From contig NZ_MSKS01000008.1 in the NCBI RefSeq assembly GCF_001937445.1, forward strand, positions 1-41,034: 41,034 bases of DNA, written 5' to 3'. This stretch comes from Actinomyces oris (GTDB lineage: Bacteria; Actinomycetota; Actinomycetes; Actinomycetales; Actinomycetaceae). Position 1 is the first letter of the stretch. Each line of letters opens with the position of its first letter. The notes under the pieces were generated by a model, which was not told where the DNA came from, ran no database searches, and saw nothing but the letters and a program-made list of their open reading frames with translations. Of this stretch, positions 7,498-28,921 are shown piece after piece. Made by a program: the position numbers and the translations under genes.

Positions 7498-9987
7498 CTA
7501 CGGCACGAGGGCGGTGATGAGGGGGCTGGCCTCGCCGCTCCAGGAGATGGCGAGCTGGTCTCGGGCGCGGGTCGCGGCCACGTACAGCAGCGAACGCTCC
7601 CGTAGGAGGGCGTCGTCGTGGTCTGCGTCGGAGTACTGCTGGTCCCGCAGCGACCGAGGGATCGCGTTCCTCGAGACGTCGAAGAGCAGAACCTTGCGGA
7701 ACTCCAGGCCCTTGGCGCGGTGCATCGTCATGACCACTGGCCTGCCTCGACCGGCCGCCTCCCGGTCCACGGCACGCACCTCTATCCCGTGCTGCGCCAG
7801 ACCATTGACGACGGCGTCGCGCTGGTAGCGGTCACGCACGAGGATGGCGATGCTCTCCGGGGCGCTGTCCTCACTGTCTCGGTCCTGCTCCAGCCACACC
7901 GTCAGCAGCTCAGCGGCCTTGCTCAGCTCGTCGGCGCGGTCGGAGGCGTGCAGCAGCAGTGGCTCGGGTCCGGAGCGCGGTGAGACGTAGTGGTGCTCCT
8001 CGGCCTGCCCCTCCATGTCCTCATAGGTGCCGGAATCGAGGATCCCGAAGGCGACATCGAGGTTCTGACGGGTGGTGCGGTAGTTGCGCGTCAGCCGCCG
8101 CGACCTCCCGCGCACCTGGATCCCGTAGTGGCTCAGCGTGATCTTCTTGCCGTAGATCCGCTGGTGGGAGTCCTCAGCCAGGAACAGGTCATCCGGGCCA
8201 GGTTCCACCAGCGCCCGCAGCAGCTGCAGGTGAGCGGGCGTGAGGTCCTGCGCCTCATCGACGAGCACGTGCCGGAAAGGCCGGGGTGTGCCGAAGGCTG
8301 CCTCATGGTCGAGCCAGGCGGCGGCCAGCACGAGCTGTTCGTCAAAGGAGGTCACGCCCAGGTCGGCGCTGCGGTCCCGGTAGCGCTCCATCGCCTTCCA
8401 CACGGCGGCCCGCTTGGACCGGTCCAGGGCCACGCCCCGACCGGGGCGGCGCACGCGCAGGTACTGCTTGAGAGTCGTCACGCGCTGGGGCAGCACGATC
8501 AGCTCGTACTCGGACTCCAGGAAGTCGGCGGAGCGCAGCTTCTCGGGCAGCTCATCGCCCATGAGGGTGAGGACCTCCTGCCACACATTCTCCCTGGGGT
8601 AGGTGAGTACTCGCCCGCGCGGCTGGCCGATGACCTCCTGGGCGATGGGGGAGATCTTGGCCCCGGCGTGCTGGAGGATCATGCGCGCCACCCGGTCCAG
8701 GCCGCTGACCATGACTCCGGGCTCGCTCAGCTTCTCGGTGAAGGGCAGCCGTGGTTCGAGCTGGGCGACCTGGCGGCGCAGGTCGTCGGCGAGGTTGCGC
8801 GTGTAGGTCGTCAGCAGGATCCGCGGCTCCTGCCCGTCAGCCTTGTCCCGCTTGGCCAGCTCGACGGCGCGGTGCACGGCAATGACGGTCTTCCCGGTTC
8901 CGGCGCCGCCCGAGACACGCATGGGGCCGTTCGCGCGCCGCTCCACGAGGGCCCGCTGCTGGGGGTGCAGGAAGAGCTGCCACTTGGCGAAGCTGAGTCC
9001 CTCGATGGCGCGGCGCAGGTCCTCGTCACTTTCCAACCAGGTGAAGGTCGAGCGTGCCGCGCGAGTGCGCAGACCGGCGATGAGGTCGGCGTCGGTGGGC
9101 TCTGCGGCGACGTCACGCGAGGGCCGCAGCCCGAAGTCCTCACGGATCTCCTCGATCGTCGCCCCCGTGGCCAGGCTGAGCAGCGCCTCGCCCTGCCAGG
9201 ACACTCGGGCGGTGGAGGCCAGGTCGAGGAGCTGGGACTCGCGCTGCGCCGCCAGTGCCGCCGCGCCGAGTCGGACGTCAATGCCGAGCTCGTCGTGCAG
9301 CATCTCCACGGTGAGTCCGTCGGGCCACACCGGTGCCTGGTCCCGGCTGGGAACGACGACGGCGCCCGGCACAGCAGCGGCCCCGAGCGCCACTCCGGCA
9401 GCCGTTCCTCCTTCGCCCCGCTGGCCCCCCGTCCCAACCGGCTCGGTGCCAGCTGCCTGGGTGGACGCGGAACCGACGTCGACCCCTCTGGCGGCTTCCT
9501 CGTTGCGACGACGCGCCTCAGCGTTGGCGGCCTGGAGGCGGGCCGTCTCGCGGGCGAGCTCATCGGCCTCGCGCTGGGCGGCGGCGAGCTCGGCCTGGGC
9601 TGTGCGCCGCGCCTCCTCAACGGCACGGGGATCCAGGCCGATGAGGTCCCCGACGTTGACGACCTCGGTGATGCCGTTGCGGGGGTTGACGTGGACGGTG
9701 ACGGATTCGGCGATCTTGATGGCCTCGTCATGCGGCCAGATTCCGTGAATGACGTAGACGACCTCACCGTCGGCGGCGAGCTCGAACAGGACGGCCCGGT
9801 AGAAGTCGGTGACGCGCGCGGTGCGCACACGCCGGTCCCGCGATCCACGAATGGGCTCCAGGTGCAGCCCCGAGCTCGTGGTCATGGTGGACAGCTTGCT
9901 GATGAACGGCCCGATCTTCGCCCTGAGGGAGGGGTCCTTGGCGGTGGCGTCCTTCGTCTTGCTGCTGGGCAACAGGATCGTGGCCAT
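7498..9987 (-). CDS. UvrD/Rep-type superfamily 1 helicase with RelE-like N-terminal domain
   Basis: This 829-aa protein has an N-terminal RelE/ParE-like fold at about residues 40-105 (DRRVRTARVTDFYRAVLF, then YVIHGIWPHDEAIKIAE), a hinge rich in Ala/Glu, and an SF1 helicase core. The core shows Walker A GGAGTGKT (about 360), VDEAQDL (about 575), LTRNYRTT, MHRAKGLEF and YVAATRAR (about 805), i.e. motifs I, II, IV-VI of UvrD-like enzymes. The ATG at 9987 lies 1 nt after the stop of the 2191-aa gene, with GGAAGGAC about 8 nt upstream, so translation is probably coupled. It would act on DNA as an ATP-driven helicase. Whether the RelE-like part is an active nuclease or a sensor is unknown. It is the last gene of the island and is followed by a family-2 repeat. 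Confidence 0.85.
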   Translation of the reverse strand: MATILLPSSKTKDATAKDPSLRAKIGPFISKLSTMTTSSGLHLEPIRGSRDRRVRTARVTDFYRAVLFELAADGEVVYVIHGIWPHDEAIKIAESVTVHVNPRNGITEVVNVGDLIGLDPRAVEEARRTAQAELAAAQREADELARETARLQAANAEARRRNEEAARGVDVGSASTQAAGTEPVGTGGQRGEGGTAAGVALGAAAVPGAVVVPSRDQAPVWPDGLTVEMLHDELGIDVRLGAAALAAQRESQLLDLASTARVSWQGEALLSLATGATIEEIREDFGLRPSRDVAAEPTDADLIAGLRTRAARSTFTWLESDEDLRRAIEGLSFAKWQLFLHPQQRALVERRANGPMRVSGGAGTGKTVIAVHRAVELAKRDKADGQEPRILLTTYTRNLADDLRRQVAQLEPRLPFTEKLSEPGVMVSGLDRVARMILQHAGAKISPIAQEVIGQPRGRVLTYPRENVWQEVLTLMGDELPEKLRSADFLESEYELIVLPQRVTTLKQYLRVRRPGRGVALDRSKRAAVWKAMERYRDRSADLGVTSFDEQLVLAAAWLDHEAAFGTPRPFRHVLVDEAQDLTPAHLQLLRALVEPGPDDLFLAEDSHQRIYGKKITLSHYGIQVRGRSRRLTRNYRTTRQNLDVAFGILDSGTYEDMEGQAEEHHYVSPRSGPEPLLLHASDRADELSKAAELLTVWLEQDRDSEDSAPESIAILVRDRYQRDAVVNGLAQHGIEVRAVDREAAGRGRPVVMTMHRAKGLEFRKVLLFDVSRNAIPRSLRDQQYSDADHDDALLRERSLLYVAATRARDQLAISWSGEASPLITALVP

Positions 9988-9988
9988 G

Positions 9989-12900
9989 TCAGTGTCCTTC
10001 CAGGAGCTCGGGGATGAGCGCGCAGATATCGGTGGCGGTGCGGGCCGGATCGTCGCCGGTGACGATGACGCGCCAGCCGGCCGCCGTCAGGGCCTCCTCG
10101 TCGCCGTCCTGCGGCTCGGCGAGGACAGCAACCTTGGGCGCGGCCCAGGACAAGTCCGTCATGATGCCGCCGACCTCGACACCGTCGCCCTCGTGGGGGA
10201 GGCCGGCCGCGGCCAGGTGGGGCAGAAGGGTGAGGATCGGCTCGGGGGTGAGGTCCTGGTCGACGTCGTCCCAACCGAGATCGCTCATGGCGGCCGGGCT
10301 GCCGGCGACGTCGGCCACAGCGACCTCAGCCTGGGCGCGGGCGCGCAGCTCGGCCAGGGCCCGGCTGGTCGTGGTGATGTCCACGGGCACATGAGCCAGG
10401 GCGAGCACGTTGCTGAGCCGCAGCCAGGCCAGCCAGGCCTCCGGATGCTCGGGAGTCCCCAGGGCCTCATCGGAGTCGTCGAGCACGAGGGCCATCCCCG
10501 TGGTGGAGGAGCCGGTGAGCTGGACCGCCAGGGCAAGGTGGGGGATAGTAAAGACCGAACCGGAGCGCTTCGACGTCGCAAGAGCGCCTGCGACATCAGC
10601 AGCACCAGCCGGCTCGGGCAGCTCGGCCTCAGGCCGCAGCACCCGCAGCGCTTCCCACAGCGGATCCACCATGGTTCGTCTGGTGTCCTCTTCGGAATCA
10701 CTCTCTGGGACCAGGGAGCACTGCAGGGAGGCGGTCCTGCTTAAGGGTAAGTGGTGGTAGGCCCCGACGATGAGCGGCCCCCAGGCGGAGTCGGCCAGGG
10801 CCGCCAGGGCGGCGGTGGTCGGACTGGTCTCGGGGTCCTCGTTGTCATCGTTGAGCATCGTCTCCAGCAGCGCCATTGGCCCGCCGCGCCAGGCGTCAAT
10901 GGCCTGGTCGGTGACGCCGCCGGCGCGCGAGGCCCCCAGGGAGCCGTTCTTGAGCTGGGCGACGGTGGCCTCATTCAGCCAGGCCGGGTTCCACGGCCCG
11001 TCCAAGTCCTCGACGCTTACGGAGATGACCCGGTAGCCGGCGGCGCGCAGGCGTGCACGTTTGTCGGCGTCGTCGGTGAGGCGGTTGTTCCTGCGACTGG
11101 CGTGGAAATTGTGGCCGTCGGTGAAGATGGCGATGGGAGTGCGGCCGCCGGGGCGCAGGCAGGTGAAGTCGGGGCGGGTACCGCGGGCGTCGAGCTGGGG
11201 ACGGATCCGCCAGCGGCCCCCGTCGATCTCCAACGCGGGCGCGCCCGAGGGGTCGCTGGTGGTGCGCACGGCCATCTTCTTGCTCAGGAGGTCGGCGAGT
11301 GCGGCGCGGAAGCGCACCTCCAGGGGGCTCTCCCCGGTGCCGGCGCGTACGGCCTCGTCGGTGACTGTCCACTGGGGGAGGTCCGGGTCGAGCTCGGCGA
11401 ACATGCCCTCGGTGTCCTGGGCGCCGGTGGCCTCCCGTCCCAGGAGCTGGCCGATGGCGTGCAAAGCCGCGGCGCGGGTCACCTCAGCGGAGACGGCGTG
11501 GGGCCGCAGGCAGTCCGGGCACATGTCCTTGCCCTCGGCGCGGCACGGGCAGCTCTCCAGGTGCTGGCCGGTACGGATGAGGAGGTTCCAGAGCCGGCTG
11601 GAGTCGTCATGGTCGGTGAGGTAACCGGTGCCCCCGGGCACGGTGTCGTGCAGCAGGAGGGCGGGACGGGTCTCGCCGGGGGCGCCGCCGGCCACGGGGT
11701 GGGGGACGGAGGCGATGTTCAGGTGGTCGGGGGAGCCGCCAGTGGTGATCTCCAGCCCCAGGAGGATCGCGGAGGCCAGCGAGTCCACCCCCACCCGGTC
11801 GGTGGCGAAACCCAGCGGCAGGACAAAGGCGAGTGCCTCAGTGCTCAGCTCGCGCATGAGATCGACGGCGATCACGTGCTCGGCGGAGTCGCTGCGGTAG
11901 CGGCACCAGGGCCGGTGCTCGCGGGCGGAGGAGGCCCGCGTGTCCGTGTCGAGCTTGCCACAGGCCTCGCACATGCGGAAGTCCCGCGAGGAGAGGGCGT
12001 TGCCGGAGACCCGGTCGACGCTCTGGCCGGCCAGGGGCCGCCCGGTGTTGAGCCAGCGCAGGTTCATGCCACGGTAGCGGGTCACCCCGAACCCGGAGGC
12101 CTCCACGTTCCACTGGCGCACCGCGCGGGTGGGGTCGAAGTCAGCCAGGGGCAGGACCTCGAAGTGGGTGCGGAGCCGCTCGTCGCTGGAGTCCCCGATG
12201 CGGGCGTCGTCCTTGGAGACGTCGGCGAAGACCCGGCTCAGGCGCAGGACCCGCCGGGCGCGTCCAACCTCGGCAATGTCGGTGTCACGGCACCTGGGGC
12301 ACTCCGTGGGCGCGGCGGGCCGGGTCTCCTGCGGCTCACGCACGTCGATGTAGCCGCAGGCCTTGCAGCAGAACCACCACTGGGCCTGGTTGCTCAGGTC
12401 GGAGGCGTCAATACCCTCGATCTCCATCTCCAGGCCGCGGGTGTAGAAGGTGGCGCCGGGGGCGAACTCGTGCAAGGCGTGGACGGAGGCTCTCTCGACG
12501 TCGCAGGGCTCGGAGTGGAACTCCTCCTTGTCCGGGTCGCGCCAGGAGACGCGGGCGGACAGGCGCACGGAGTCGTCGATGAGGGTGTAGTTGGGCAGGA
12601 TGCCGTGGCGCTCCAGGGCCGAGACCCAGTGCTCACGGTCCAGGTCGAAGATCCGGGACTCGGCCGCCTTCCGGGCTCCTTCGGCGGAGCGATGGGCTCG
12701 TAGATCCTCCTCGGTGGCGTTGGGGCGCTCGGCGGCGACCTTGAGCTCGGGCAGGGCCTCACGGATCTGGCGCTCCTGACGGTGGAGCTGCTCGGACTCG
12801 GCGCGGTGCTCGGCCGCGGCCCGCTGAAGCATCTCGCGAGGCCCGGCACCGGCGTCCTGGGTCACCCAGGTGCTCAGGCGGTCGAGCGCCGGCGTGCGCT

Positions 12901-15900
12901 CCTGGAAGGCGTCGGTGAAGGCCTGCACCAGCAGGGCGCCGTCGCGCTCGATCCGCTCGCACAGTGTGGTGACGAGCGAGCCCTCGCCGGTGGCCCCCAG
13001 GGCGGTCTTCGCGGTGCCGCCGCCGTGGCCGCCGGAGGGGATGGCCGGGTGGTTCTCGCGGGCGAGGGTGTCGATGACGGAGGCCAGGAACTGGCGGCGC
13101 AGGATCTCCTCGGCCCCCAGGTAGGTCGACGGCGGCGCGACGGAGCCGTTGAGCAACCGATCCGGGGCCTCGAGGATCGGGAGCTGGCTGCGCCTGCCGG
13201 GAACGTAGGCCAGGGCGAGCGCCGAGCCGCTGCGGCGGCCCGCGCGGCCCACCCGCTGCACGTAGGAGGCGACGGTGGCCGGCAGGGAACCGAGCATGAC
13301 GGTGGACAGGTCCCCGATGTCGATACCCATCTCCAGGGTGGGGGTGGCCACGAGGACGTTGGGGTCACCGGGCACCTGCGTGGGGCGCTTGAACCCGGTC
13401 TCGACGTCGGCGCGCTCCTTGGCGTCGAGCAGGGAGGTGTGCTCATGGGAGTCGACCCGGCGCACGTGGGCCCCGGCGTACATGCTGCGGTAGAAGCTCT
13501 CGGTCGGGTGAGGCTGGGCCCTCAGGTGGCCGGGACAGGTGGCGGCCAGGCAGGGGGCGCCGTTGAGCTGGTCGACGGTGGCGATGGCGGCGGGCAGCTG
13601 GGTGCGGCAGGTGTCGCACACCAGGAGCAGGGCCTCGCGCGTGGTCTCGCGCAGCGGGGAGACGACGACGCGGCCGGCCGGCAGCCCGTAGACGGTGCCG
13701 CCGGAGTCGGTGGTGGTGACGCTGAGGATCCCGGCCTCGGCCAGGTGGGCCAGGAGCGCGCAGGCCAGGCGGGAGGCGTGGGTGGGCACGACTCCCAGGC
13801 ACTTACGGGCCCAGGTGGCGTACCAGGACTTCGAGGAGCTCACCGGCGTGAAGGCCGACTTGCGGGTGTCGAGGCCGCCGCCGACCTGGGGGAAGGCCGG
13901 GGCGGCGCGCCCGGTGGGGAAGGCCGGCTGGCCCTGATCGCGGTCGCGCTTGTACCAGATCCACAGGCGCTTGCCGTCGTCGCGCTTGTAGTGCGAGAGC
14001 CACTCGTGGTCGATGGCGCCCTCGCGGCGCATGTGCTCCAGGGTGCCGCGCACCCAGGCGAGCAGGGCCGCGTCGCTGGTGTCCTTGAAGCCGTCGAGGA
14101 CGCCCTGCTGGTCGGTGCCGAGGGCCTGACGGGCCAAAGCCACCAGGGCGTTGGCCCGCCCGGCGCTGACGTGGACGGTGACCGAGCCGGTGGCCTCCAG
14201 GGTGCGCCCGTAGGTGGACTGGAGCCCCACCTCCAGGGCGATGTCGAACAGGAGCCGACGGCGCACGTGCGGCTTGGCGCGGCTGCGCTTGGAGGCCGGG
14301 GCTTTCGGGTCCCAGTAGGGCTTGAAGCGCGGGTGCTCGGACAGGGCCGCGGGGACCAGCCGGTAGCGGTCGAAGGCGCTGGCCTGGGCGTCGTCGAGGG
14401 CGGCCTCGGCCCACTCCTCGATGGGCATCTCTGCTCGCAGCGCCCCGCGCAGGGCCGAGCGCAGGCTCATCGTGTGGGAGCGCTGGTTGACGTAGCCGGC
14501 GCGGTGGGCGGCGTCCTGCACGGAGTCGGTGAAGATGAGGGCGCGTTTCTCGGTGTTGTCGAGGGCGTCGTCGCCGAACAGGGTGGTCAGGGACACCGAC
14601 AGGAGGGTGGCGACGGCCGAGCCGAGGAAGCGGATGGAGTCCTTGGTCCCGCAGGAGGGGCAGACGTCGTTGGTGGAGTCCTCGGTGATGCTGCGCTCGT
14701 CCCCGGTGAGCATGAGAACCGGCAGGACGAGGCCCTCCTTGGCCTCGGTGCTCTCCTGGTCCGGGCGGCGGGTGAGGATCTCGCGGCTGTTGATGGAGTA
14801 CCAGCGCAGCCCGGGGTGGCGGGCCTCCAGGTTGATCTCGCCGGCCTCGGCGCGGGTGCGGTAGTCGGCGTCCTCCCCGGGGGCGTGCAGGAGAGCCCGG
14901 AAGCGGGGGTCGCCGGTCTTGCGGTCGCGGCGCACGTGGGTCTGGTCGTCCTTCTCCTTCTGGCCGGTGGGGGCCAGGACGATGCCCCAGCCGGAGCGCC
15001 CGCAGGAGCGGCAGTACAGGGCAGGGCGCGCGGGCTCCTCGACCTGCGTCTGCTCGGAGGCGGCATCGGCCCAGCGGAAGGAGGGCAGGGAACTCAGGGC
15101 CCGGTCGACGCGGGTGACCTCCCGGATCCACAGGGTGAGCTCCACGTTGACCGCGCTGCGGTCGGGTTTGCCGTCGAGTCCGGCGCGCACGACGGACAGG
15201 GCCGCCAGGATCGCGGAGAGGACCTGCCGAGCCAGACCCGACTCCGGGATAGGGCCCAGGAGGCCCCGGGCGAGATCGGCCAGCGACGTGGAGTTCTCGG
15301 CGGCGCGCACGAGGTCCAGGACGTCGGGGTGGGCCTGGAGGGCGGAGGCGAGGCCGGCGGCGTCGAGGGTGTCCTCCACTTCCTCGGGCAGGTCGTAGAG
15401 GTGAGCGACGACGCCGCGGAGCAGCTCCTCGGGGCTGGGGGAGCCGGTCTCGGCGAGGTGGGCCAGGGCCTGCAGGTTCTCACCGGGCAGGGAACGCAGG
15501 CGCAGGGCGCGGCCGGCCAGGCCCTTGGACTCGGCCACCTGCCGGTGCGTGGCGGCCCACTGGTCGAGGTCGGCTCGGGTCTCGGTGACGACGGCGCTGG
15601 TGGGCAGGTCGGTTCCAAAGACGTCGCGGGCGAAGGCGAGCATCTGGGAGGGGTCTGCCCCGTCGCCGAGGGTGGCGGAGGTGGCCACGGGGCACACGGG
15701 GCCGAGTGGGGCGGAGGCGAAGGCCTCCTGGCGGGGGTGGTCGGCGGGTAGGTGGGCGCGCAGGGTCAGGCCCAGGCGCCGCAGCAGCATGGCGACGTCG
15801 GTACCCTGGGCGCCGTCGTAGGTGTGGAACTCGTCGAGGACCAGGTAGGTGAGCGACCCGGCTGAGGCCCGCCACAGCTCGCGGTCCTCGGGGCGCAGGA

Positions 15901-16564: not shown

Positions 16565-16735
16565 AGCTGGAGCGTGGTGGTGATGGGTGGTGGGGTGGAT
16601 GGCGGCGAATGGTGTTCGGGAGTGGTGTCTGCCGGGGCCGGCGCCACCTCGTGCGGATCGTCGTTGTTCCGGGAGCGATCCCGCTGGTCCGAGGCTACCG
16701 CAGGCTACGTGAGGGGTGAGACGCTTGTTAGTAAC

Positions 16736-16749
16736 GGAATGTACATTCC
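16736..16749. promoter_or_regulatory. Perfect 14-bp palindrome, likely operator of the Phd/RelE pair
   Basis: GGAATGTACATTCC is perfectly self-complementary and overlaps the proposed -35 element (16740-16745) of the toxin-antitoxin promoter. Phd-type antitoxins usually repress their own promoter from such sites. A second inverted pair, CATAA/TTATG, spans 16763-16778 over the -10 box. Confidence 0.55.
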
Positions 16750-16768
16750 CGCACTTTTCGTCCATAAT
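16740..16768 (+). promoter_or_regulatory. Promoter of the toxin-antitoxin pair
   Basis: TGTACA (16740-16745), a 17-bp spacer and CATAAT (16763-16768) form a good sigma-70-type promoter. The start of transcription would fall at about 16775, right at the ATG at 16776, implying a leaderless mRNA. No SD is present. Confidence 0.5.
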
Positions 16769-16775
16769 GTCTGTT

Positions 16776-18059: not shown

Positions 18060-18064
18060 ACGGT

Positions 18065-18217: not shown

Positions 18218-18419
18218 CTCCTTCCTAAGCCCTCCCTCCCCGGCAGGGAGAGCGGATGATCTGAGGAAGGATTTGGAAGAAGAGGCTAAAACTATTGCGC
18301 CTGCCATTTTGAGACGTCGTCACCAACCTCGCGAAGTTCTTAAAATAGTTGTCGAGAGGCGGTCGGTGCTGGAGTGCCGAATACTTTCGACCTGAAGGCT
18401 GGGGAGAGGAAAATCGTCA

Positions 18420-21017
18420 TCAATCCTCGGGAATGACTTTAGTTTGGCCAACAAGTTTTCCGGTCAAGCGGTTACGGAGGTCTGAAGGTAGAAGTTCAAA
18501 TCCTCGAAGTATCTGGGCGACAAGAGTTTGTAGATCGCCTGTGCTCATGCCGCTAATTCCAGTTAAAAGGCGTTTCCATGCGTTTTCTGTGTCGGCAGCG
18601 ATAGTTCTAATTGTGTCCGGATGTACAAGATAAACATCGTTGTGCGCGATGATGATGGCGTCACTATGTACACCGGGCTTTGGGGAAATTATGACGACTG
18701 CGCTGTCTGGCGGAATAGTTGAACAGTTACGATCATCGGCCAGTAGTTGTAGTTGTCCATTAGATTGACGAACATCTTTGATGGACAGTGTGCCGGCAGT
18801 ATTGTGTTCACTTTTGGCTTCAAGTGCAAGCCATAGTTCGTTATCCCAACACCATGTGGAGTCGCAGCGGCCATGCCGTGTCGGTTTCGATGCATCGGCC
18901 CCAAGCATATGACCGAGTGCTGTCAATCCTGCTTCGAATCTACCGGAATCCCGTTGAGAAAGATCGTCCCTCATACGGATTAGCTTGTCTCGATGGCGAT
19001 TTTCCTTGAGGTCTCCTCTGAGTATCGCCACGATACTATTAATGGCGACGTTGTCTGCTTGACTCATTGTTGGTGCCTCTGTCTCTGGAAACTGTGCCAT
19101 TCGATTGATCCATAGACACCTTCCGGCCATAGATGAGGCCTCAGATAGTAAGTTTCGAGATACAGATTTCAGCAGAGAGTCCCCGCTCTCTTCTGCAGCC
19201 ATATCGGTCCATGCTGCCTCCAGATATTTCCAGAATGCCTGATACTGTCGGGTTGCTTTACCTCCATTTCCAAGTATATTGCAGACGGAGTGAGCACTAT
19301 CGGCAGCATCTCGCCATGAACTCACTGACGCTGAATTCCATGCGTCGATCTCTTTGTCCACACAAGCGGATAGATAGTGGGAACCTGGCGAGGGGGATTG
19401 AACTGCCTCGCGCCTGTAATCGGTAAGTATTGGTTCCGCGTCTGATCTCCAAGTGTCATCGGTATCCTGATTTAAGAATGCACAAGTGTTTTCTAGTATG
19501 TCCTCTCTGGTTCGGTCTTGAGAATTCTCCAACCCAAAGCGAATTTCTGCTTGGAGTTCAGGAGAAAGGGGTAACCGTGTTTCTGGACGCGTCAAGTAGT
19601 GAGATAGTTCTCCCTTGACTAGAACAACCGCTGTATCCTTTGGGCCTCGAGTACAGCGTCCACTACCTTGAACAATCCGAGTACGGATGCGAGTCTCAAG
19701 GGCAACCCCGCCTTGCACGTTCTTCTGAAGGAAACGCTCCTGAAGATTCAGCTGGTCGGGTGTGCCGTCAAACACAATCAGCCGGCAGGCGTCTCCGGGA
19801 AGGTCGAGACCGTCATAGCGAGCGGCCAAGGCGCATACTGCATGTTCTGCGTCGATGAATGTCTGCATGCTCGTGGATACATCGTCGATGCCAAAGGTGC
19901 GCCATCCGTCTTGTGCTAGTTCCCTAGCGTCTTTCATGGCTACTTCGTTGCTCTGAGAGAGGATAAGGGCCTTCCCTGCTTGGGTGACAATGGCTTTACT
20001 CAGCTCTGCAGCTTCTTTTTTAGAGTTAGGAACGAACTCCGGGAATACAAAAAAGCGTCGTCCCGATCGTGGTGCAGTATTATCATCTAACTGATGTAGT
20101 CGCTCGATGGTGTGTCGACCGAACGCGCGTTCAAGTTCACCGCCGTCACCAAGTGTGGCTGACAGATAGATGCGCTGTCTCGCTTGTGTAAATAAAGAAT
20201 TTTGGTTTGTAGGCGGTATGTATGGGCGTATTAGTATTTCTGAGTATGAAACGTAAATTAGGCAGGACGCTATGCCCTGGTTAATCATTGAGTAGCGATA
20301 TGAATATGGCTCTCTGAACGTAGACAGCGTTTTAGTGAGTTCCCTTACCATTCCTGCCTGTCGCAACGGCACTACTAGACGAACTTCGCTTGTAATCGCC
20401 GGATCTGACTGGTCGGCCTTTAAACGCTCAAGGAATACTTTGTCAACTGCTGGACTTATGACCTCGAGGATCCGCTGATATTCGCTGGTGTCGTTGTATC
20501 TGTTAAGACTAAGACTGTACGCCTCTCCAACATACTGTTCTCCTGCATGGGCATCATCGAATAGTATGACTGATGGGTCTGCTAGCTTTGGGTGTGAATT
20601 GAATATACTGCTGTAAGTGGTGATACCAACGCGTTGAGCGGACTCGTAATGCATCTTGGAAATTGGGCTCCAGTTTGCATGAGAGCCGGTCAATAATGTT
20701 GTGTCGATACCTTCACGATTTGCAGAGTTATGAACTTGTTCTGCTAACTGCCGTGTCGGGCATGCGTATAGAACGCGTTGGTTGTGGTGTCGACGATTCC
20801 ATTCGGCGACGAGGAGGCCAATAAGCGTCTTTCCTGTACCTGTTGGCAGTTCGAGAGCAATGTCGGGATGGTTGGCTTTATCTGTGTATGCTTTGAGCAT
20901 TTCCGCCTGATGTGCCCATAAACCTTGAACTGCTCCGGGACGTTGTGGCAGGTCGCGATATAGTTCCCCGGGAGTGGCGTACCGTGTTGTCTTTCGAGCT
21001 GATCTTTTAAATGCCAT
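18420..21017 (-). CDS. SF2 helicase fused to a PD-(D/E)xK-like nuclease
   Basis: This 865-aa protein has Walker A ELPTGTGKTLIG (about 52-63), a variant DEAD box LFDDAH (about 151-156), motif III SATLGDG and motif VI QGSGRCTRGP (about 450), so it is an SF2 helicase. Near the C-terminus (about 715-755), DSTWCWDNELWLALEAKSEH followed by VRQSNGQLQLL matches the D...ExK plus Gln-helix pattern of restriction-type PD-(D/E)xK nucleases. The start at ATG 21017 has AAGGAA 8 nt upstream and lies 80 bp after the methyltransferase stop. It is the natural candidate for the cutting subunit of the island. Its GC is visibly lower than its neighbours, with many AT-ending codons, pointing to separate acquisition. 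Confidence 0.82.
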   Translation of the reverse strand: MAFKRSARKTTRYATPGELYRDLPQRPGAVQGLWAHQAEMLKAYTDKANHPDIALELPTGTGKTLIGLLVAEWNRRHHNQRVLYACPTRQLAEQVHNSANREGIDTTLLTGSHANWSPISKMHYESAQRVGITTYSSIFNSHPKLADPSVILFDDAHAGEQYVGEAYSLSLNRYNDTSEYQRILEVISPAVDKVFLERLKADQSDPAITSEVRLVVPLRQAGMVRELTKTLSTFREPYSYRYSMINQGIASCLIYVSYSEILIRPYIPPTNQNSLFTQARQRIYLSATLGDGGELERAFGRHTIERLHQLDDNTAPRSGRRFFVFPEFVPNSKKEAAELSKAIVTQAGKALILSQSNEVAMKDARELAQDGWRTFGIDDVSTSMQTFIDAEHAVCALAARYDGLDLPGDACRLIVFDGTPDQLNLQERFLQKNVQGGVALETRIRTRIVQGSGRCTRGPKDTAVVLVKGELSHYLTRPETRLPLSPELQAEIRFGLENSQDRTREDILENTCAFLNQDTDDTWRSDAEPILTDYRREAVQSPSPGSHYLSACVDKEIDAWNSASVSSWRDAADSAHSVCNILGNGGKATRQYQAFWKYLEAAWTDMAAEESGDSLLKSVSRNLLSEASSMAGRCLWINRMAQFPETEAPTMSQADNVAINSIVAILRGDLKENRHRDKLIRMRDDLSQRDSGRFEAGLTALGHMLGADASKPTRHGRCDSTWCWDNELWLALEAKSEHNTAGTLSIKDVRQSNGQLQLLADDRNCSTIPPDSAVVIISPKPGVHSDAIIIAHNDVYLVHPDTIRTIAADTENAWKRLLTGISGMSTGDLQTLVAQILRGFELLPSDLRNRLTGKLVGQTKVIPED

Positions 21018-21097: not shown

Positions 21098-24000
21098 TTA
21101 TGCCTTTTCTCTATTTGAAAGGGCGGTGTGGATGCGGCGGAAGTCGGCTTCGCGGTCGCGGATGCGGAAGGGGAGGTCGTAGACGTAGGAGACGCCGGAG
21201 CCAGGGTGGGGGTGAGTGCGTTCTGATAGGGGCATGTCCTCGTTGGAGGTGGGGTACTTGCGCTTCTCCCAGGCCTGGCGGACCGGAGTCGGCAACTGTC
21301 GGCCATTCGCGTCATAGACGTAGGCACCCTGGCCGCGGCCATGGTCGTAGTCGTACAGTACCGCGAACTGGGTGCGGTATATCGTGCACAGGTCCTCGAT
21401 CGGCACGCCCAGCATCATCGCCACCATGACGTCAATCTCCGCCTGCGCATTGCGGCGATCCTCCGCCCGACGCAACGGCGTATCCGCGGTCCACTCCGGA
21501 CTGATCGGACGCTCATCATAACGCTCCAGAATCGGTGAATCATCCAAGAATGCCTCATCCCAACACTCCGTCCACAGATCAGAGTAGGCATCCGCGATGC
21601 AGTTGAGGCGAAGTGATCTTAGTGTGATTCGCTTTGCTAGAGGTGACCTGAGTGAAGGGAGTGGGAGACGACTTATTGCGCGCTCTCTAATATTAATACT
21701 CGCTCCGGCTCGGATTAACAAGTCGCTGAGCAGTGTTGACATAACGGCTGCTGCGAAGGTGACGTCCTGTTCTGAATTAGACGCCGCAGAGAAGAGTGCG
21801 TCGATATGGGTAGGCCCAGGAGGGATAAGTGCTGTTGCCAAAGTGCGTTCGCCGGTGAGGGGAGCCATTTTTCGCCAAGCGATGCGGTAGTGGTCGCGGG
21901 CGGAAGAGTCGTCCCAGTGGGTGTAGAGACGGTCGTAGGTGGTGCGGTCGCCCGAAGGCTTGTACTGGGTGACAGGTTCAGCGCTTGCGGGAAGGGCTTC
22001 CAGGTCGGTTGAGGTCCAGTCCAGATTGTGCTTCATGGACTCGTTAGGCTGCTTGTACAGCGGGGTTGAGACGTGGAGGTGAGGTCCTTGAAGGATGGCG
22101 TCGCCCCAGGATGCTGCGCCCCATTGTTTGGAGAATAGTCCTCTTTGGAAGTCTGTTGTTTCGTTCCAGCCAGTTGAAAAATGGAGGTCGAGGCTACCGA
22201 TGCGCGGTTGGGTGGCTAGTGTGGTGAGTGTACGTGCGGCAGCTGAGTTCACGGTGGAGACCATTGAGGTGGAACTCCAGTCGTCAGATTCCGTTACTGA
22301 TTGCCAGGTCTTCAGTGTGACTTCATCGATGGATTCGATGCGGGCTGCGTGCGGCCGTAAGTCCCAGGTTCCGGTGTGTGGATCTTTGAAGCCGGGCTCC
22401 TGTCCACTGCCATCGTGCATGAGAGAGCGCTGCACTGTCTCGGGGTGGTAGAGCGAGGCTGCGTGGATGAACGAGGGTGATCGCTCTGCGCCGTAGACGT
22501 GGATTCCGTACGCGTTGTGGTGATCGATGCCAAAGAGTTGAAGCTCGTTGATGAACTGCCAGTGTCGCCGCAGGTGCCGGTAGGCGGCGGCGCGGAGTCC
22601 TGGGGTCTTGGCGTCGGTGAAGTGGGTTTCCATGTGAATGAGTGAGGAGATGCCCTGCCCACTCTGGTGCTCCCAGACTTGGCACATGAAGGCTCGGTAG
22701 AGGTCGGGGCGTCCCTCCATGATGGGATAGACGGTCTGGTCGCTGATGAACTCAGCGAGGACCTCGGTCTCGGCGGCTCCGTCGAGCACTGTGGTGAGGA
22801 CGCCAGGACGTGCCAGAGTGCGCGGCAGGCGCTCCTGCCGCTTCGCAAGCGACGGCTTCTTCGTGAGCATCCACCAAGGGTCGCCGTCAGCGAGAAGCGT
22901 CTCGACCGAGACGTCAGGTCTCACCCACGGTGGGTTCCCTACCTGGAGGTCGAAGCCGCCTCGGGCGAAGACGGTGGCAAAGTCAAGCTCCCAGTGGAAG
23001 AAGCCCTGTGCCTCCGCTACCTCCCGGACCACGGTGAGCCATTCGTGCTCGTCAACAACCGACTGCACTTTGCGGGCCCCAGCGAGGCCCAGCTCAACCT
23101 CCTCCATGGTCTCCAGTTCCGCCCAGGAGGAAGCATCCACGAGAGTCCCATCGGTGCCCTTGGCGTCCTTGACCTGCTTGCCCAACAGCCCCTCTAGAGC
23201 ACCCAGCCACTCATCCAGGCTCGGCGGCGGCACATCCGTGGTCAACGGCCAGAACCACAGGGCGCACCACGCATCCATGACCAGCCGCAGCCGCCGGTAC
23301 GCCGAATCCGGTGCCGCCAGGTAGGCCTCAATGTCCTCACGGGACACCGTTGAACCGGAGCCCTCCTGCGCCTCACGACCCCACAGGTCGATGCGCCGCG
23401 AGGCCTCCGCCTCCGCCACCCGCAGGCGCCGCAGCGTCATTTCCCACAGGACCTCCACTCGCCGGGCCAAGGCCGTCAGCCGCAAGGCCTGAGTGGTGCT
23501 CAGCGCCTTCGTGATGTCCTTGCGCCAGGCCTTGAGGGCCTTGAGCTTCTCAGCATCAACCAGGTCCCGCACCTGCTTGGGAACCTCCACCGCGTTGCCC
23601 CACCCCTTGGCCGGCAACAGAAAATGATGGATGCTCCCCGAGATGTCCAGCGCCCCACCGATCCGGTGCCGGGAGGCGGCATCGGCGTCGTCGAGCACGG
23701 CCGCCACCTGGCTCAGCGGCTCAGCCACCGGCGCGGCCGACAGCCAAGCCCGCTTCTTCAGCTGAGAGGTGGAGTACAGGGCCCGGCGCGCCCCCACCAG
23801 CGAGTTACCGCGCCGCAGCCGCAGCCCGAACCACGGTGCCGCCAGCCCCTCCACCATCGTGTCCAACCACAAGGACACCTCCGCCAGCTCCACCGCCGTC
23901 GCATTGAGATCCACCCCATAGACCTGGTGTAGAGCGATAAAGGCCTTCACCTTCGCCAGCTCCCGGGGCCGCTCCTCAGGATCCACGCGCCGGCCCAGCT

Positions 24001-25828
24001 CGCGCTCACGCCGCGAGAGGTACTGCTCCGCCAGCTGGCGCACCGCCTCAATCGCGAAGGCCCCCGACCCCAGCGCCGGCTCACACACCGTCAGGTGCAG
24101 GATCTCCTCAGCGCTCGTCGTCCGCCCATCCTGATCCAGCAGCTCCTCCAGCGCCTGCTGCACCGTGAAACGCGTCAGCACCTCCGGGGTGTAGAAGGAG
24201 GCCGAGCGCTGCCGGTCCCGGCCAGAGAGCCGGTAGACGAACTGCCCCTTCTCATAGGTGACGTTGCGGCGCTCACCCGTCACCTCATCCTCCACCGTCA
24301 CGAAGTCCTTCTCCTCCAGGCCCTTCATGACGTCCTCGGGCACCACCCAGGAGCCCTTCGAGGCGTCCCCGCCCGGTGCCACCTCCCACAGGCGCTCGGT
24401 GGCGAAGGAACCCGAGTAGCTCATCAGCCCCTCGTAGACGGCACCCAGCTGGTTGATACCCAGCTCCACGTAGGAGATGAAGCCACGGCCGCTCTTGCTG
24501 TTCTCCTTAGTCAGCAGCAAGTGGCGCAGCACCCGCAGCAGCGCCCCGTTACCCAGGCCCACCTCGTCAATGAGGGCGGTCGCCACCGGGCGGAAAAGGT
24601 CGGCGCGCATCGGCCGGAAGACCAGGCCATCGAAGCTGCCCTCCTGCGCGGCCGGCACCTGCTCGTTGTGCCCCTCATCGACCAGATGGAACAGGCGGTC
24701 CAAGGACTCGTAAATGTGCGTGCCCGCCAGGGCCGACTCCTCATGCAGCTCCCGCAAGGCCAGCTCGCGCAGACGATCCAGGCCGTAGCCGGCGTCGTAC
24801 TCGGTGGCGCCCACCGGCAGGACCCCCAGCTCAGGGCTCGCCTCCGCATACAGCAGGAAGATGATCCGGTAGATGTAGCGCAGCGACTGCAGCGCCAGGT
24901 CCTGTGCCCGCTCCTGGGGCAGCGGCTCCAGCCCCCGCGCGGCGCGACGGCGCACCACCTCATTCGCAAGGATCTCAATCGAGGAGCGCACCCCCTCACG
25001 CAGATCCTTCGAGACCCCCACCGTGTGGGCCGCCGAGTCCTCCAAGGTGGCCGCCCACCACGTCTCGCCCTCCGCCGTCGGCAGCAGAGAGCGGGCATCC
25101 AGACAGGTCAGGGCCCGCTCCACCTCGCCGCCGCGCGTGGCCTCATGACGCTCGACGACGAGCTGCACGTTCACCGCCAGCCAGCGGCCCTCCGGCCATC
25201 GCTCCCGCTCCGCCACCAGCGCCCACTGGCCCGCCAGAACCAGGGCGAAGGCCGGGCCGTGAGCATCCGTCATGAGCGTCGACAGCGCCCGAGACACCGA
25301 TTCGATTGGCTCAGCCCCCTCCAGCACCGGTGCGTCGGGGTCCCCCAGGTCCACGGGCTGCCACGCCTCAGCGAGCGTGGAGGCGTCCTTGACCAGCAGG
25401 TCCTCCACCGTGGTCACCGGGCGGGCGCGCAGTAGCACCAACGGCGCCGGGCCCTCATCACCCACCGGCCTCACCAGGGTCACCGGGCCCCGCCCGGTCA
25501 GCCGGTACTCCGACGACGTGAAGCCCAGGATCTCGCGCAGGAGCTCATCGAGCTCGCCGGCCGCCTCCAGGGCCGCGCCGGTCAGGGAGCCTGCGTCGTC
25601 GGCGGGCAGGGCCGCCAGCAGCTCCTCCAGGCGGGAGCGCTCGGAACGGAACCGGGAACGAGGCGTCGGCGTCGGGGCGGTACCGGGATCGGCCGGCTTC
25701 TCCAGGGCCTCCCATTCCTTGCGGCGCTCCAGCACACGCGCCAGGAAGGACTCCTTGGTGGCGTCGGTCGTGAAGTAGTGCTCGCTGATCCAGTCCTCGC
25801 CGACGACCAGCGCATCCGACACCGCCAT
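21098..25828 (-). CDS. Large N6-type DNA methyltransferase (Eco57I/PglX/DrmMI-like)
   Basis: This 1576-aa protein has a long N-terminal region (about 1-520), FYTPEVLTRFTVQQALEELL (about 545), SAM motif I CEPALGSGAF (about 580), GVDLNATAVELAEVSLWLD and the catalytic NPPW (about 963). These mark an amino-methyltransferase that probably makes N6-methyladenine. Residues about 1000-1500 should hold target recognition. Within them, codons for about 1110-1420 (DNA 21560-22500) are clearly poorer in GC than both flanks. The ATG at 25828 shares one base with the TGA of the SNF2 gene (TGATG), so the two are coupled. In class 1 DISARM an SNF2 helicase and a large adenine methylase are likewise adjacent. 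A stand-alone type IIG-like enzyme is less likely, since I see no nuclease motif in its N-terminus. Confidence 0.86.
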   Translation of the reverse strand: MAVSDALVVGEDWISEHYFTTDATKESFLARVLERRKEWEALEKPADPGTAPTPTPRSRFRSERSRLEELLAALPADDAGSLTGAALEAAGELDELLREILGFTSSEYRLTGRGPVTLVRPVGDEGPAPLVLLRARPVTTVEDLLVKDASTLAEAWQPVDLGDPDAPVLEGAEPIESVSRALSTLMTDAHGPAFALVLAGQWALVAERERWPEGRWLAVNVQLVVERHEATRGGEVERALTCLDARSLLPTAEGETWWAATLEDSAAHTVGVSKDLREGVRSSIEILANEVVRRRAARGLEPLPQERAQDLALQSLRYIYRIIFLLYAEASPELGVLPVGATEYDAGYGLDRLRELALRELHEESALAGTHIYESLDRLFHLVDEGHNEQVPAAQEGSFDGLVFRPMRADLFRPVATALIDEVGLGNGALLRVLRHLLLTKENSKSGRGFISYVELGINQLGAVYEGLMSYSGSFATERLWEVAPGGDASKGSWVVPEDVMKGLEEKDFVTVEDEVTGERRNVTYEKGQFVYRLSGRDRQRSASFYTPEVLTRFTVQQALEELLDQDGRTTSAEEILHLTVCEPALGSGAFAIEAVRQLAEQYLSRRERELGRRVDPEERPRELAKVKAFIALHQVYGVDLNATAVELAEVSLWLDTMVEGLAAPWFGLRLRRGNSLVGARRALYSTSQLKKRAWLSAAPVAEPLSQVAAVLDDADAASRHRIGGALDISGSIHHFLLPAKGWGNAVEVPKQVRDLVDAEKLKALKAWRKDITKALSTTQALRLTALARRVEVLWEMTLRRLRVAEAEASRRIDLWGREAQEGSGSTVSREDIEAYLAAPDSAYRRLRLVMDAWCALWFWPLTTDVPPPSLDEWLGALEGLLGKQVKDAKGTDGTLVDASSWAELETMEEVELGLAGARKVQSVVDEHEWLTVVREVAEAQGFFHWELDFATVFARGGFDLQVGNPPWVRPDVSVETLLADGDPWWMLTKKPSLAKRQERLPRTLARPGVLTTVLDGAAETEVLAEFISDQTVYPIMEGRPDLYRAFMCQVWEHQSGQGISSLIHMETHFTDAKTPGLRAAAYRHLRRHWQFINELQLFGIDHHNAYGIHVYGAERSPSFIHAASLYHPETVQRSLMHDGSGQEPGFKDPHTGTWDLRPHAARIESIDEVTLKTWQSVTESDDWSSTSMVSTVNSAAARTLTTLATQPRIGSLDLHFSTGWNETTDFQRGLFSKQWGAASWGDAILQGPHLHVSTPLYKQPNESMKHNLDWTSTDLEALPASAEPVTQYKPSGDRTTYDRLYTHWDDSSARDHYRIAWRKMAPLTGERTLATALIPPGPTHIDALFSAASNSEQDVTFAAAVMSTLLSDLLIRAGASINIRERAISRLPLPSLRSPLAKRITLRSLRLNCIADAYSDLWTECWDEAFLDDSPILERYDERPISPEWTADTPLRRAEDRRNAQAEIDVMVAMMLGVPIEDLCTIYRTQFAVLYDYDHGRGQGAYVYDANGRQLPTPVRQAWEKRKYPTSNEDMPLSERTHPHPGSGVSYVYDLPFRIRDREADFRRIHTALSNREKA

Positions 25829-28800
25829 CAGAGATCCCCTTCCATCCCGAAGTCCTGAGGCACCACCACCAGCAGCGGGCGCACCAGCGTGTGTGCGGGC
25901 AGGTGCTGATCCATGAGCTCGCGCTCCTGAGCCACCGTGATCCGCTGCTCGCGCAGGTGGCGGTTCTGGATGAGACGACCGGCCTCGTCATCCCAGGCAT
26001 TCGCGTGCTCCGCCCAGGCGTCCACCCGAGCCTTCGCCTGTTCCTCCGCTGCGTCGAGGGTCAGTCTCATGTGGTCCTTAGCCGTATCCACCGCCGGGGG
26101 GATGAGTGCCTCCAGCAGGTTGGTCTGCGTCACCGGCCCGGAGTTCCGCAGCTCCCGGGAGATGCCCACTGTCTCGAACATGGCGGCGGGGGAGTCGTGC
26201 ACCTGCCCGATCGGCACCGCCTCGACTGGCCGGCCCGCATCCAGCTCCGACTGCGCGGCTGCCAGGTCCAGGTAGGGGAAGGCGATACTGACACACACCA
26301 TCGACACCGTCCGGCCCGCCTGGTTCGTCAGAGTCCCCAGCAACAGGACGGTCGGTGAGTCGACATCGCCGCGCACCGCGAACACTGAGGAGCGGCCGAG
26401 CTTGGCCAGCACCCGGTCGCCGGCCCAGTCCAGCACCGGGTGCAGCGGCCCCAGATAGTGGGCCTCCGGCCAGGAGGAGTCCGAGGAATCACTCAGGGCC
26501 TCCGCGAGAAGACGCGCGCCCTTTGTCTGCGTCGTCGCCAGCTTGAGGTGCTCCTGGACGCGGCGCTCACGCAGGTAGGACTGCGGCAGCACCGACAGGC
26601 GATGGCGCAGCCCCGCCGGAGGCACCATCTCCACCACGTGCTGCGTGCCGTGCTCGCGCCACGAGACGCCCCCGCCGCCGGTCTGGCGCTGCTCTGGTTC
26701 CTCGGGGCGCTCATAAAGCTCGGTGAGGGCCTGGCGCAGATAGTCCAGCTGGGTCTCGTACAGCGTCGACGTCGCCAGCGGGGCAGCGGGCTGGATGGGG
26801 GAGGCCGGACCGGCCGGGTCGCCGGGAGCGCTCGGATCAGCAGGGGAGACCTCGGCGCCGGTGGGGGCAGTGGCGCCGTTGCCCTTGGCCTCGGCCGTGC
26901 CCGTCAGTTTCGCGAACAGGGCCGCCATCGGATCCAGGTTGAGGGTGTCGTCGGCGTCGGCGTCGGGGACGACGTCGTCAATGTCCTGCCCGGCCGCGAG
27001 CGCCTGGCGGATCGCCTCCTCCTCCTTCTCGCCCGAGTACAGGCCCATGAGGGAGGCTGCGTCGCCCAGGGCCCGGTGCGCCTGGTCCTCCTTCTCCATC
27101 AGGCGCGTGAGCACGCGGACGTCGCCGGAGAAGCGCGGGTCCGACGGGCTCAGCAGCAGGGTCGTGATCTGCGGTGAGACGGACTGGCCGTAGCGGTCGA
27201 TGCGGCCGTTGCGCTGCTCGATGCGGATGAGCGACCAGGGGATGTCGTAGTGGATGAGCTCATGGCACTGGGCGTGCAGGTTGACGCCCTCCGAGGCGAT
27301 GTCGCCAGTCACCAGGACGCGCACCGGCGTGTGGGCCTGGCGGAACTGCTCGACGATCTCCTGCTGCTCCACGTCGGACAGGCCCCCGTGCATGACCCGC
27401 ACCGCGTCGGCGGGCAGGCGCAGGTCCTCGCGCAGGTGCTCGGCCAGCCAGGTGAGCGTCGTGATGCGCTCGGCGAAGACGACGACGCGCTCGGTCGACC
27501 TGGGGCCGATCCCGATGCGGCGCAGCTCGGTCAGCAGCGCCTGGTACTTGCCCGAGGCCGTTGTGTTGGCCTCCACGGCCAGCTCGCGCAGGCGGGTCAG
27601 GGCCTGGGACTGCTCTGAGGGTTCCGGGGTGGAGCCGGCTGCTGCTGCCCGGCTGCGACGTCGGGCCAGGCGCTCGTCGATCGTCTGGATGAGGGCCGCC
27701 GGCGAGGACAGGAAAGACTTGGCCAGGGTCCAGGCGAACAGGGAGTCGCCGCCGCGGGCGGAGGGTTTGCGGCCACCCGGTGCCGAGGCGCCGTCGGAAC
27801 GGTGTAGCCAGGTGCGTGACAGTTCGCCGGCCACCGCGTCCTCAGCCGGGGAGGGCTGCACCAGCTTGTTGACCGGAGTCAGGCGCTCCTTCCAGCGGCC
27901 GCCCACGACGTCGCGCACCTCGTCGGAGTGACGGTGACGGCGGATGACGAGGCGACGCACCGCCTCCTCGTCAGGCTCTCCGTTCGCTCGCACCGCCGTC
28001 GGCTCCAGCAGACGGATGAGTTCAGCGAAGGACTTCGGGTTGCCGTTGTGGGGCGTGGCTGAGGCCAGGATGAGCGCGTCGGTCTGACGGGCCAGGATGT
28101 CCGCGAGCCGGTTATTGAGCGTGCCCTTGTTGGTGACGTTGTGCGATTCGTCGATGACGACCGCGTCCCAGCGCTGCTTGCGCAGATGGTTGAGGTAGCG
28201 GTCCGACTTCAACGTGTCGATGGAGATGATCGCGCGGTGGAACACCGAGAACGGGTTGCGTGAGGCCGGTACCGAACGGCGCACCCGCTGGATGCCTACC
28301 GAGTCCAGGCGTACGAAGGGCAGCGCGAAGCGCGACCACATCTCATGCTGCATCTGCTCGAGCACGTGACGGGGCGTGACGATGAGGATACGGTCACCCC
28401 GGCCACGGCGCACGAGCTCGGCCAGAATCATGCCGATCTCCAGGGTCTTGCCCAGGCCCACGGTGTCAGCCAGGAGGATGCGCGGGCGCAGGTTCGCCGG
28501 ATCCAGGGCCTGGCGAACCGCCGTCAGCTGGTAGGCCAGCGGGTCGGCGAGGACGTCACCGACCACGGCCAGGTCAGTGGAGGTCGCCGGGAGCGCCGTC
28601 TTGCGCAGCGTCGCCTCCAGCCACAGGCGCGAGAGCCGGTGACGAGTGGAGGTGTCCGCGATGACCCGGGTTCGGCGCGGATCCACCGGGACGATGTGGT
28701 CAAGGCCGGCGGAGAACTGCGCCGTCGTGTCCCGAACCAGCTCGGACAGGCCCTGAACCGTCACCAGCATGCCGTCAGACGTGGTGGAGACCTGGGTGAC

Positions 28801-28914
28801 CAGCCAGTCCTCGTCGCGCACCCGGACCACAGAGCCCGGTGCGACATCAAGAGAAGGGAGGGAAGGGGCAGGATCCGTCACCGCATCCGGGGGAGTCGTG
28901 GGCGCCGTTGTCAC
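25828..28914 (-). CDS. SNF2/HepA-type helicase (DrmD-like)
   Basis: This is a 1028-aa protein from the GTG at 28914. It shows LLADTVGLGKTLEIGM (about 148-163, motif I), DESHNV (about 258, variant DEAH box), ASATPHNG (motif III), and helicase C motifs MHGGLSDVEQQEIVEQF, GDIASEGVNLH and QRNGRIDRYGQ (about 480-570), all typical of SNF2 ATPases of the HepA/DrmD kind. The N-terminal part (VVRVRDEDWLVT) resembles a small barrel. The rest of the C-terminus is unassigned, with a Gly/Ala/Pro-rich linker at about 670-715. TAAGAT lies 7 nt before GTG 28914, which fits leaderless expression. The longer open frame up to 29244 crosses the family-2 repeat and the IS end and is rejected. It heads the island and overlaps the methylase start by one base. 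Confidence 0.86.
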   Translation of the reverse strand: MTTAPTTPPDAVTDPAPSLPSLDVAPGSVVRVRDEDWLVTQVSTTSDGMLVTVQGLSELVRDTTAQFSAGLDHIVPVDPRRTRVIADTSTRHRLSRLWLEATLRKTALPATSTDLAVVGDVLADPLAYQLTAVRQALDPANLRPRILLADTVGLGKTLEIGMILAELVRRGRGDRILIVTPRHVLEQMQHEMWSRFALPFVRLDSVGIQRVRRSVPASRNPFSVFHRAIISIDTLKSDRYLNHLRKQRWDAVVIDESHNVTNKGTLNNRLADILARQTDALILASATPHNGNPKSFAELIRLLEPTAVRANGEPDEEAVRRLVIRRHRHSDEVRDVVGGRWKERLTPVNKLVQPSPAEDAVAGELSRTWLHRSDGASAPGGRKPSARGGDSLFAWTLAKSFLSSPAALIQTIDERLARRRSRAAAAGSTPEPSEQSQALTRLRELAVEANTTASGKYQALLTELRRIGIGPRSTERVVVFAERITTLTWLAEHLREDLRLPADAVRVMHGGLSDVEQQEIVEQFRQAHTPVRVLVTGDIASEGVNLHAQCHELIHYDIPWSLIRIEQRNGRIDRYGQSVSPQITTLLLSPSDPRFSGDVRVLTRLMEKEDQAHRALGDAASLMGLYSGEKEEEAIRQALAAGQDIDDVVPDADADDTLNLDPMAALFAKLTGTAEAKGNGATAPTGAEVSPADPSAPGDPAGPASPIQPAAPLATSTLYETQLDYLRQALTELYERPEEPEQRQTGGGGVSWREHGTQHVVEMVPPAGLRHRLSVLPQSYLRERRVQEHLKLATTQTKGARLLAEALSDSSDSSWPEAHYLGPLHPVLDWAGDRVLAKLGRSSVFAVRGDVDSPTVLLLGTLTNQAGRTVSMVCVSIAFPYLDLAAAQSELDAGRPVEAVPIGQVHDSPAAMFETVGISRELRNSGPVTQTNLLEALIPPAVDTAKDHMRLTLDAAEEQAKARVDAWAEHANAWDDEAGRLIQNRHLREQRITVAQERELMDQHLPAHTLVRPLLVVVPQDFGMEGDL

Positions 28915-28921
28915 GGAGACG

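Follow-up and report, generated by a model that had tools for sequence, protein, structure and literature searches.

ARMADA type II is a four-gene system, described from Escherichia coli NCTC 12900 and ATCC 8739, that blocks phages in E. coli (Bell et al., 2025; PMC12458937). All four genes are reported to be required against phage HK022, protection is described as not abortive in appearance, and mutation of six residues is reported to abolish protection and that of two others to reduce it (PMC12458937). Synergy of ARMADA II with a neighbouring Druantia III system was reported against some phages (PMC12458937). Hna from S. meliloti, of which 10UJ and 9YKJ are structures, is described as an ATP-autoinhibited 3'-5' single-stranded DNA (ssDNA) exonuclease that is released by phage single-stranded DNA-binding protein (SSB) and acts through abortive infection (PMC13381803). 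Defence genes embedded in other defence operons have been reported for DarTG2 between hsdS and hsdR (PMC12255303), TgvAB in a type I restriction-modification (R-M) operon (PMC11411939), nucleases in BREX core loci (PMC12839542) and the Hma-embedded candidates of Payne et al. (2024), as cited by others; the PDC candidates of PADLOC are described as discovered via guilt-by-embedding (PMC12988326). Here, we analyse a locus in a 41,034-nucleotide stretch of Actinomyces oris (the whole of contig NZ_MSKS01000008.1, positions 1 to 41,034; 'the window' below) that is probably an ARMADA type II operon with an Hna-family gene inserted between armB and armC. A first-pass annotation had read the same five genes as a single DISARM-like defence island.

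The four core genes

All five minus-strand open reading frames (ORFs) are present and open in the window and share one orientation; the one-base overlap of the first pair (base 25828) and the 1 nt spacing of the last pair were also confirmed. By sequence comparison, four of the five match ARMADA type II. These are armA (25828-29244), which encodes an SNF2/RapA-like (BrxHII/DrmD-like) helicase with Pfam SNF2-rel_dom and Helicase_C matches; armB (21098-25828), a PglX/YeeA-like adenine methyltransferase (Pfam Eco57I); armC (9989-16564), a 2191-residue giant protein that combines a YprA-family helicase, DUF1998/MZB and a putative Vsr-like C-terminal part (Pfam DEAD, Helicase_C and MZB); and armD (7498-9987), in which a RelE-like domain is fused to a GajB/UvrD-like helicase (Pfam UvrD). 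They lie on one strand in the order published for ARMADA type II, interrupted once, between armB and armC. The set thus corresponds largely, though not in full, to an already named system, and the suggestion that it might be a distinct system or a divergent subtype is partly right, in that it is not DISARM.

The named ArmC representative, WP_000937974.1, was found in an ARMADA operon of a cattle E. coli genome (L159), which served as the reference for alignment. Identities between the window and this operon are 38% for ArmA (35% in a local alignment spanning 845 columns), 34-35% for ArmB, 32% for ArmC (aligned over 1980 positions) and 36% for ArmD. Each of the eight residues that were mutated in E. 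coli is retained in the window proteins: Lys266 and Asp365 in ArmA, Lys119 and Asp244 in ArmC, Lys366 and Asp577 in ArmD and, in ArmB, the first residue of an NPPW motif starting at 965 and the S-adenosylmethionine-motif glycine at 587 (N965 and G587 correspond to N971 and G605, the residues mutated in E. coli). Residues 24-112 of ArmD match E. coli ArmD 28-114, the part published as RelE-like, with an E-value of 1.8e-9; this part gave no match to PDB chains when searched alone. MZB was matched at residues 1831-1921 of the giant ORF (39.3 bits, cutoff 24.2), which places DUF1998/MZB in one protein with the YprA helicase. Assignment of ArmC to ARMADA type II is based on its alignment to WP_000937974.1 and to plasmid relatives. 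The four genes, their order, the main domain fusions and the eight mutated residues are common to both systems. The two differ in that the E. coli copy is tight at every junction, whereas in the window armB and armC are split by the Hna-family gene, a relic of armC and a RelE-type toxin-antitoxin pair.

Two gene boundaries differ from the ORFs as called. The giant ORF (9989-17269) is 235 codons too long at its start, and alignment with two plasmid relatives, one of them from E. coli, places the start of ArmC at 16564. Antisense to the false 5' extension, and hence to the operon, are two plus-strand ORFs (16716-17296), named by eye as a Phd/RelB-like antitoxin (16716-17036) and a RelE-like toxin (17033-17296). 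A RelE-like domain is thus found both in ArmD and in a toxin ORF near armC. Upstream of armA, an IS256-family transposase gene on the minus strand (29156-30370; NCBIfam NF033543, 340 bits) overlaps the 5' extension of the armA ORF, so the true armA start probably lies downstream of the ORF start, near 28914. Pfam matches were obtained for four of ten flanking ORFs (three ABC transporters and one FtsX-like permease). Rfam and tRNA scans of the window found none.

The Hna-family gene

The gene between armB and armC (18420-21017, minus strand) encodes an SF2 helicase with a C-terminal PD-(D/E)xK nuclease and matches PADLOC PDC-S28 with 341 bits. A profile built from the window protein and 45 of 120 listed homologues with 46-79% identity to it (46 sequences in total) matches PDB entries 10UJ, 9YHN and 9YKJ, of which 10UJ and 9YKJ are Hna, at 5.8e-46 over positions 8-753; with phmmer the match to Hna is remote, at 1.1e-29. 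Hna residues Asp713, Glu727 and Lys729 align with Asp719, Glu733 and Lys735 of the window protein, of which Asp719 and Lys735 are invariant and Glu733 is at least 90% conserved in the 46 aligned sequences; the position of Hna Pro712 is a cysteine. Judged from these alignments, the gene is a homologue of Hna. Domain order, approximate length and the D/E/K residues are shared, whereas the window homologue is remote and embedded in another system, and its activation by phage SSB is a prediction by analogy. The nuclease had been proposed as a replacement for drmC; it is instead part of an Hna-family gene, and the slot that this gene occupies holds different genes in different species.

The composition of this cassette gene sets it apart, with a GC content of 0.495 (0.442 at third positions) compared with 0.722 and 0.929, respectively, for armC. 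It ends 1.86 kb before armC, so the five genes do not form one compact cluster. The lower GC content of the 3' part of armB was considered as a date for the insertion and rejected, because that armB is shared, at 88%, by A. oris CCUG 34288, whose slot holds other cargo.

Close Hna copies were found in two of 48 other Actinomyces genomes (62 and 66% identity), both in the armB/armC slot; three of the 48 have remote, partial matches (28-30%) outside it. No Hna-like gene above 80 bits occurs in the best 80 ARMADA-like public loci, ranked by ArmC. The five-gene set is thus rare, its fifth gene being the occupant of a slot with contents that vary from species to species. On two actinobacterial plasmids, homologues of Hna/PDC-S28 lie directly 3' of hsdR (L005, 12001-14577; L006, 11977-14571); hsd genes were not seen in the annotation of six other plasmid neighbourhoods of such homologues.

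The armB/armC slot outside Actinomyces

Public loci comprised the best 80 from an ArmC alignment search and three plasmid loci, minus the A. oris locus L010 (82 loci). A slot was scored as occupied when at least 500 nt lay outside the downstream frame, and a junction was measured where both genes could be placed. As first counted, inserts were present in one of 49 armA/armB junctions (L016), 19 of 60 armB/armC junctions and none of 76 armC/armD junctions. The armB/armC junction was unmeasured in 22 of the 82 loci, 16 of which have a contig end within 10 kb and six of which have 10 kb of upstream DNA without armB. After dropping L022 (part of armB inverted) and L045 (Actinomyces israelii), the counts were 17/58 for armB/armC, 1/48 for armA/armB and 0/74 for armC/armD. 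Fisher p values of 1.4e-4 (against armA/armB) and 1.8e-7 (against armC/armD) are indicative only, since the loci are not independent (for example, L071 and L072 are near copies).

In 13 of the 17 occupied loci, the first cargo ORF runs in the same direction as the operon and begins 2-82 nt past the armB stop; it is reversed in L033, L048 and L086, and in L062 it is a doubtful 121-residue ORF. Cargo families (the scan left out L072 and L086) include AbiU, GmrSD-type enzymes, Mokosh MkoA (1722 bits), PDC-M07A and Schlafen/AlbA, and further a macro domain, a helicase, a Sacsin-like protein, antitoxin-like SocA, AAA_15 and ORFs without a family. In L022, a tyrosine integrase gene (2384-3235) lies directly upstream of armC beside the inverted armB piece, possibly reflecting recombinase-driven rearrangement at the slot.

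The slot in Actinomyces

From 49 genomes of the genus, stretches of 23 besides the window were compared. Both armB and armC lie on one stretch in 18 loci including the window, and distances were taken between BLAST matches; left out were L123, L129, L131 and L137 (contig ends before armB), L140 (armC fragments only) and L141 (relic only). The locus of A. oris CCUG 34288 (L010) is on the contig that also appears as G019:C7. In 17 of the 18 loci, armB and armC are separated by 2.5-13 kb, the sole exception being L139, from a divergent lineage (0.5 kb). The armA and armB matches are at most 70 nt apart in 17 of 18 loci (L139 is unresolved). For armC/armD, the estimated gap does not exceed 239 nt in any of the 22 loci measured, among them the window (L110 was left out).

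Among the 17 occupied slots, the first cargo is Hna in three (the window, G040 and G032), SLATT in three (in two cases together with a ThsB-like TIR gene) and GajA/GajB-like in two. GmrSD/NsnA, PDC-S59, reverse transcriptase UG33, PD-Lambda-5, AAA_15 (AriA/OLD-like) and a caspase occur once each, and proteins without a family make up the remainder (a 1264-residue protein twice and a 495-residue protein once). The Hna genes of G040 and G032, the GajA/B-like pair of G003, the TIR-SLATT genes of G042 and the 1264-residue protein of G013 were assigned by identity to a scanned copy. The first cargo thus belongs to a defence or toxin-like family in 14 of 17 slots.

The 1264-residue protein is encoded on the opposite strand (L142, 3077-6871; L125, 13907-17701 of the reverse-complemented stretch), and the L142 copy gave no Pfam or PADLOC match. 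The 495-residue protein (L136, 4110-5597) gave no Pfam match at 0.001 and no PADLOC match at 1e-15. In L124, a single ORF (14380-16257) carries the UG33 reverse transcriptase followed by a DDE transposase domain. The armB gene of L138 is split by about 1.7 kb into pieces at 3398-6628 and 8366-9874 (reverse-complemented stretch), and the same genome has armC in two frames (G042:C3).

Probable exchange of cassettes, and relics of armC

Similarity of the cargo does not follow that of the core. A. oris and G022 have ArmC proteins that are 96% alike and unrelated cargo; the window and G040 also share 96% in ArmC, with Hna only 66% alike. Conversely, cargo is more similar than ArmC in G019 and G013 (90% versus 81%; the 1264-residue protein shows these values between two species) and in G029 and G003 (77% for the GajA-like protein versus 61%). 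In a tree built from the first 960 ArmB residues of 17 loci, the 11 cargo states require at least 12 changes; the tree is from a quick search with SH-aLRT support only, three of its 14 inner branches are open, and it has one long branch.

A frameshifted relic of the armC 5' end (18348-18420, minus strand) follows the hna gene in the window, with 53 of 73 columns identical and a score of 64 that none of 300 dinucleotide shuffles reached (maximum 43). The hna stop overlaps the relic ATG as TGATG, which is the armB/armC overlap of the E. coli operon. The relic lies between hna and the point, at about 18250, from which the window and A. oris match again, in pieces, down to armC. These observations suggest that an armC once followed hna without a gap and that later recombination may have brought in the present armC start and the toxin-antitoxin pair. 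In L126, a relic stands after the SLATT cargo and before the toxin-antitoxin pair.

A relic as a mark of every cassette was rejected after a comparison of 23 stretches with 20 shuffles each: it is clear of the shuffles in the window, L126 (10072-10224), L137 (854-965) and L141 (9934-10053), marginally above them in L120, L125, L130 and L132, and not above them in the other 15. The L141 genome gave no long armC match.

The RelE-like ORF has a full match (78-97%) in eight other Actinomyces loci, six just upstream of armC and two (L129 and L135) about 4.5 kb upstream. In 14 of the 23 Actinomyces loci with an armC start, the window included, a RelB match or fragment lies no farther than about 0.7 kb upstream of armC. 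We infer that cassettes are swapped through recombination in the interval bounded by armB and the armC 5' end.

Discussion

The reading that we consider probable is an ARMADA type II operon with an Hna-family gene inserted between armB and armC, predicted to give a two-layer defence. ARMADA would form the first layer, a direct block of phage DNA: ArmB may mark self DNA, as its methylase homology suggests, and ArmA, ArmC and ArmD would act against unmarked phage DNA and leave the cell alive, as in their published relatives. The Hna-like protein, again by reference to its relatives, would wait as an ATP-held dimer and degrade ssDNA once phage SSB appears; if the ARMADA layer fails, the likely outcome of this second layer would be destruction of DNA and death of the cell. 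Mutual help between the two layers is plausible by analogy, because synergy of ARMADA II with Druantia III has been reported for some phages (PMC12458937), and the joint presence of core and cassette may be what selection keeps.

The armB/armC position is likely a docking place for exchangeable back-up defences, since it holds different, mostly predicted defence genes in related bacteria. More tentatively, selection could keep this dock open for interchangeable, often suicidal second-line modules, with the 5' end of armC as the right border of swaps; if so, a modification-sensing direct system would travel with a fail-safe tuned to local phages.

Several observations weigh against these proposals. 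Outside Actinomyces, the slot is empty in 41 of 58 loci and, since the E. coli system also works without cargo, the insert does not belong to the ARMADA mechanism. An opposite-strand toxin-antitoxin pair stands between the window cassette and armC, which makes a single transcript through armC doubtful. Cargo is reversed in L125, L142, L135, L136 and L033, the first cargo has no family in three of 17 Actinomyces loci, and L016 carries a 5'-nucleotidase, which is not defence-like. Within the core, the Vsr-like C-terminus of ArmC is weak by profile (Pfam MTES_1575, 17.3 bits, cutoff 38.2), and this assignment is the weakest point of the ARMADA match; RPDF and DGxxFH motifs lie in a stretch to which an E. 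coli plasmid ArmC aligns.

Of the alternatives, chance clustering in a defence island survives best. The armB/armC junction would then be a tolerated insertion site, with cargo functionally unlinked to ARMADA. In its favour, type I R-M, Hma and BREX operons are known to carry embedded genes, part of the cargo is reversed or does not resemble defence genes, and one slot (L022) contains an integrase gene. The closed state of the adjoining junctions and the 14 of 17 Actinomyces slots with defence or toxin-like first cargo speak against it, and we regard it as possible at somewhat less than an even chance.

It is unlikely that the five genes make up a single system, namely an ARMADA subtype of five components that depends on the Hna-like protein as an obligatory effector alongside ArmA-D. 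The arrangement does occur in three Actinomyces species, whose Hna genes are only 60-66% alike and so do not derive from one recent insertion, and the overlap of the hna stop with the relic armC start repeats the armB/armC overlap of the E. coli operon. However, of the three closest ArmC relatives of the window (95-96%), G019 and G022 carry other cargo and only G040 carries Hna; the E. coli system is reported to need just its four genes (PMC12458937); and relatives of Hna lie on eight plasmids with no ARMADA gene in the listed, incomplete annotation.

A divergent DISARM is very improbable: an SNF2 helicase, an adenine methylase and a YprA-type helicase with DUF1998 are common to DISARM class 1 and the window, and ArmA matches DrmD (344 bits to the NCBIfam model, cutoff 610; 317 bits to a PADLOC model) and one model named DrmA (217 bits) and ArmB matches DrmMI (195 bits), but helicase and DUF1998 are fused in one ORF rather than separate as drmA and drmB, a RelE-UvrD helicase is present, and for the giant protein the DruE3 model gives 285 bits, compared with 58 for DrmA. 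DrmC, the phospholipase D (PLD) nuclease, was not among the PADLOC matches listed for the six proteins scanned (up to 25 for each of four of them), which also have no Pfam PLD domain among their listed matches, and two PLD-helicase profiles cover only the helicase part of ArmA. The first-pass annotation was right to describe a DISARM-like island that has an adenine methylase, several helicases and a DUF1998-Vsr-like fusion protein, lacks drmC and is not DISARM. Druantia III was likewise rejected: DruE3 matches ArmC, but DruH was not among the listed PADLOC matches of the six proteins.

The new part, next to the preferred reading of an ARMADA type II operon with inserted cargo, is the recurrent cargo slot at armB/armC; the idea of embedding is already known. 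In the open-licence texts searched, the ARMADA paper among them (supplements excluded), nothing was found on cargo at the armB/armC junction. As in the embedded systems reported elsewhere, a second defence gene lies within a multi-gene, methylation-based system; here the host is ARMADA type II, and in one genus the same slot holds 11 kinds of cargo, two of them without a known family. If the dock is real, each ARMADA type II operon would be a finder of unknown defence genes, with the content between armB and armC as candidates, in the way that embedding has already proved useful in other systems, and in Actinomyces it would point to the 1264- and 495-residue proteins, which have no family in the libraries scanned. 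It would also be a natural experiment on why defences are layered: because nearly identical cores (95-96% in ArmC) carry different partners, synergy between core and partner would be measurable by cassette swaps.

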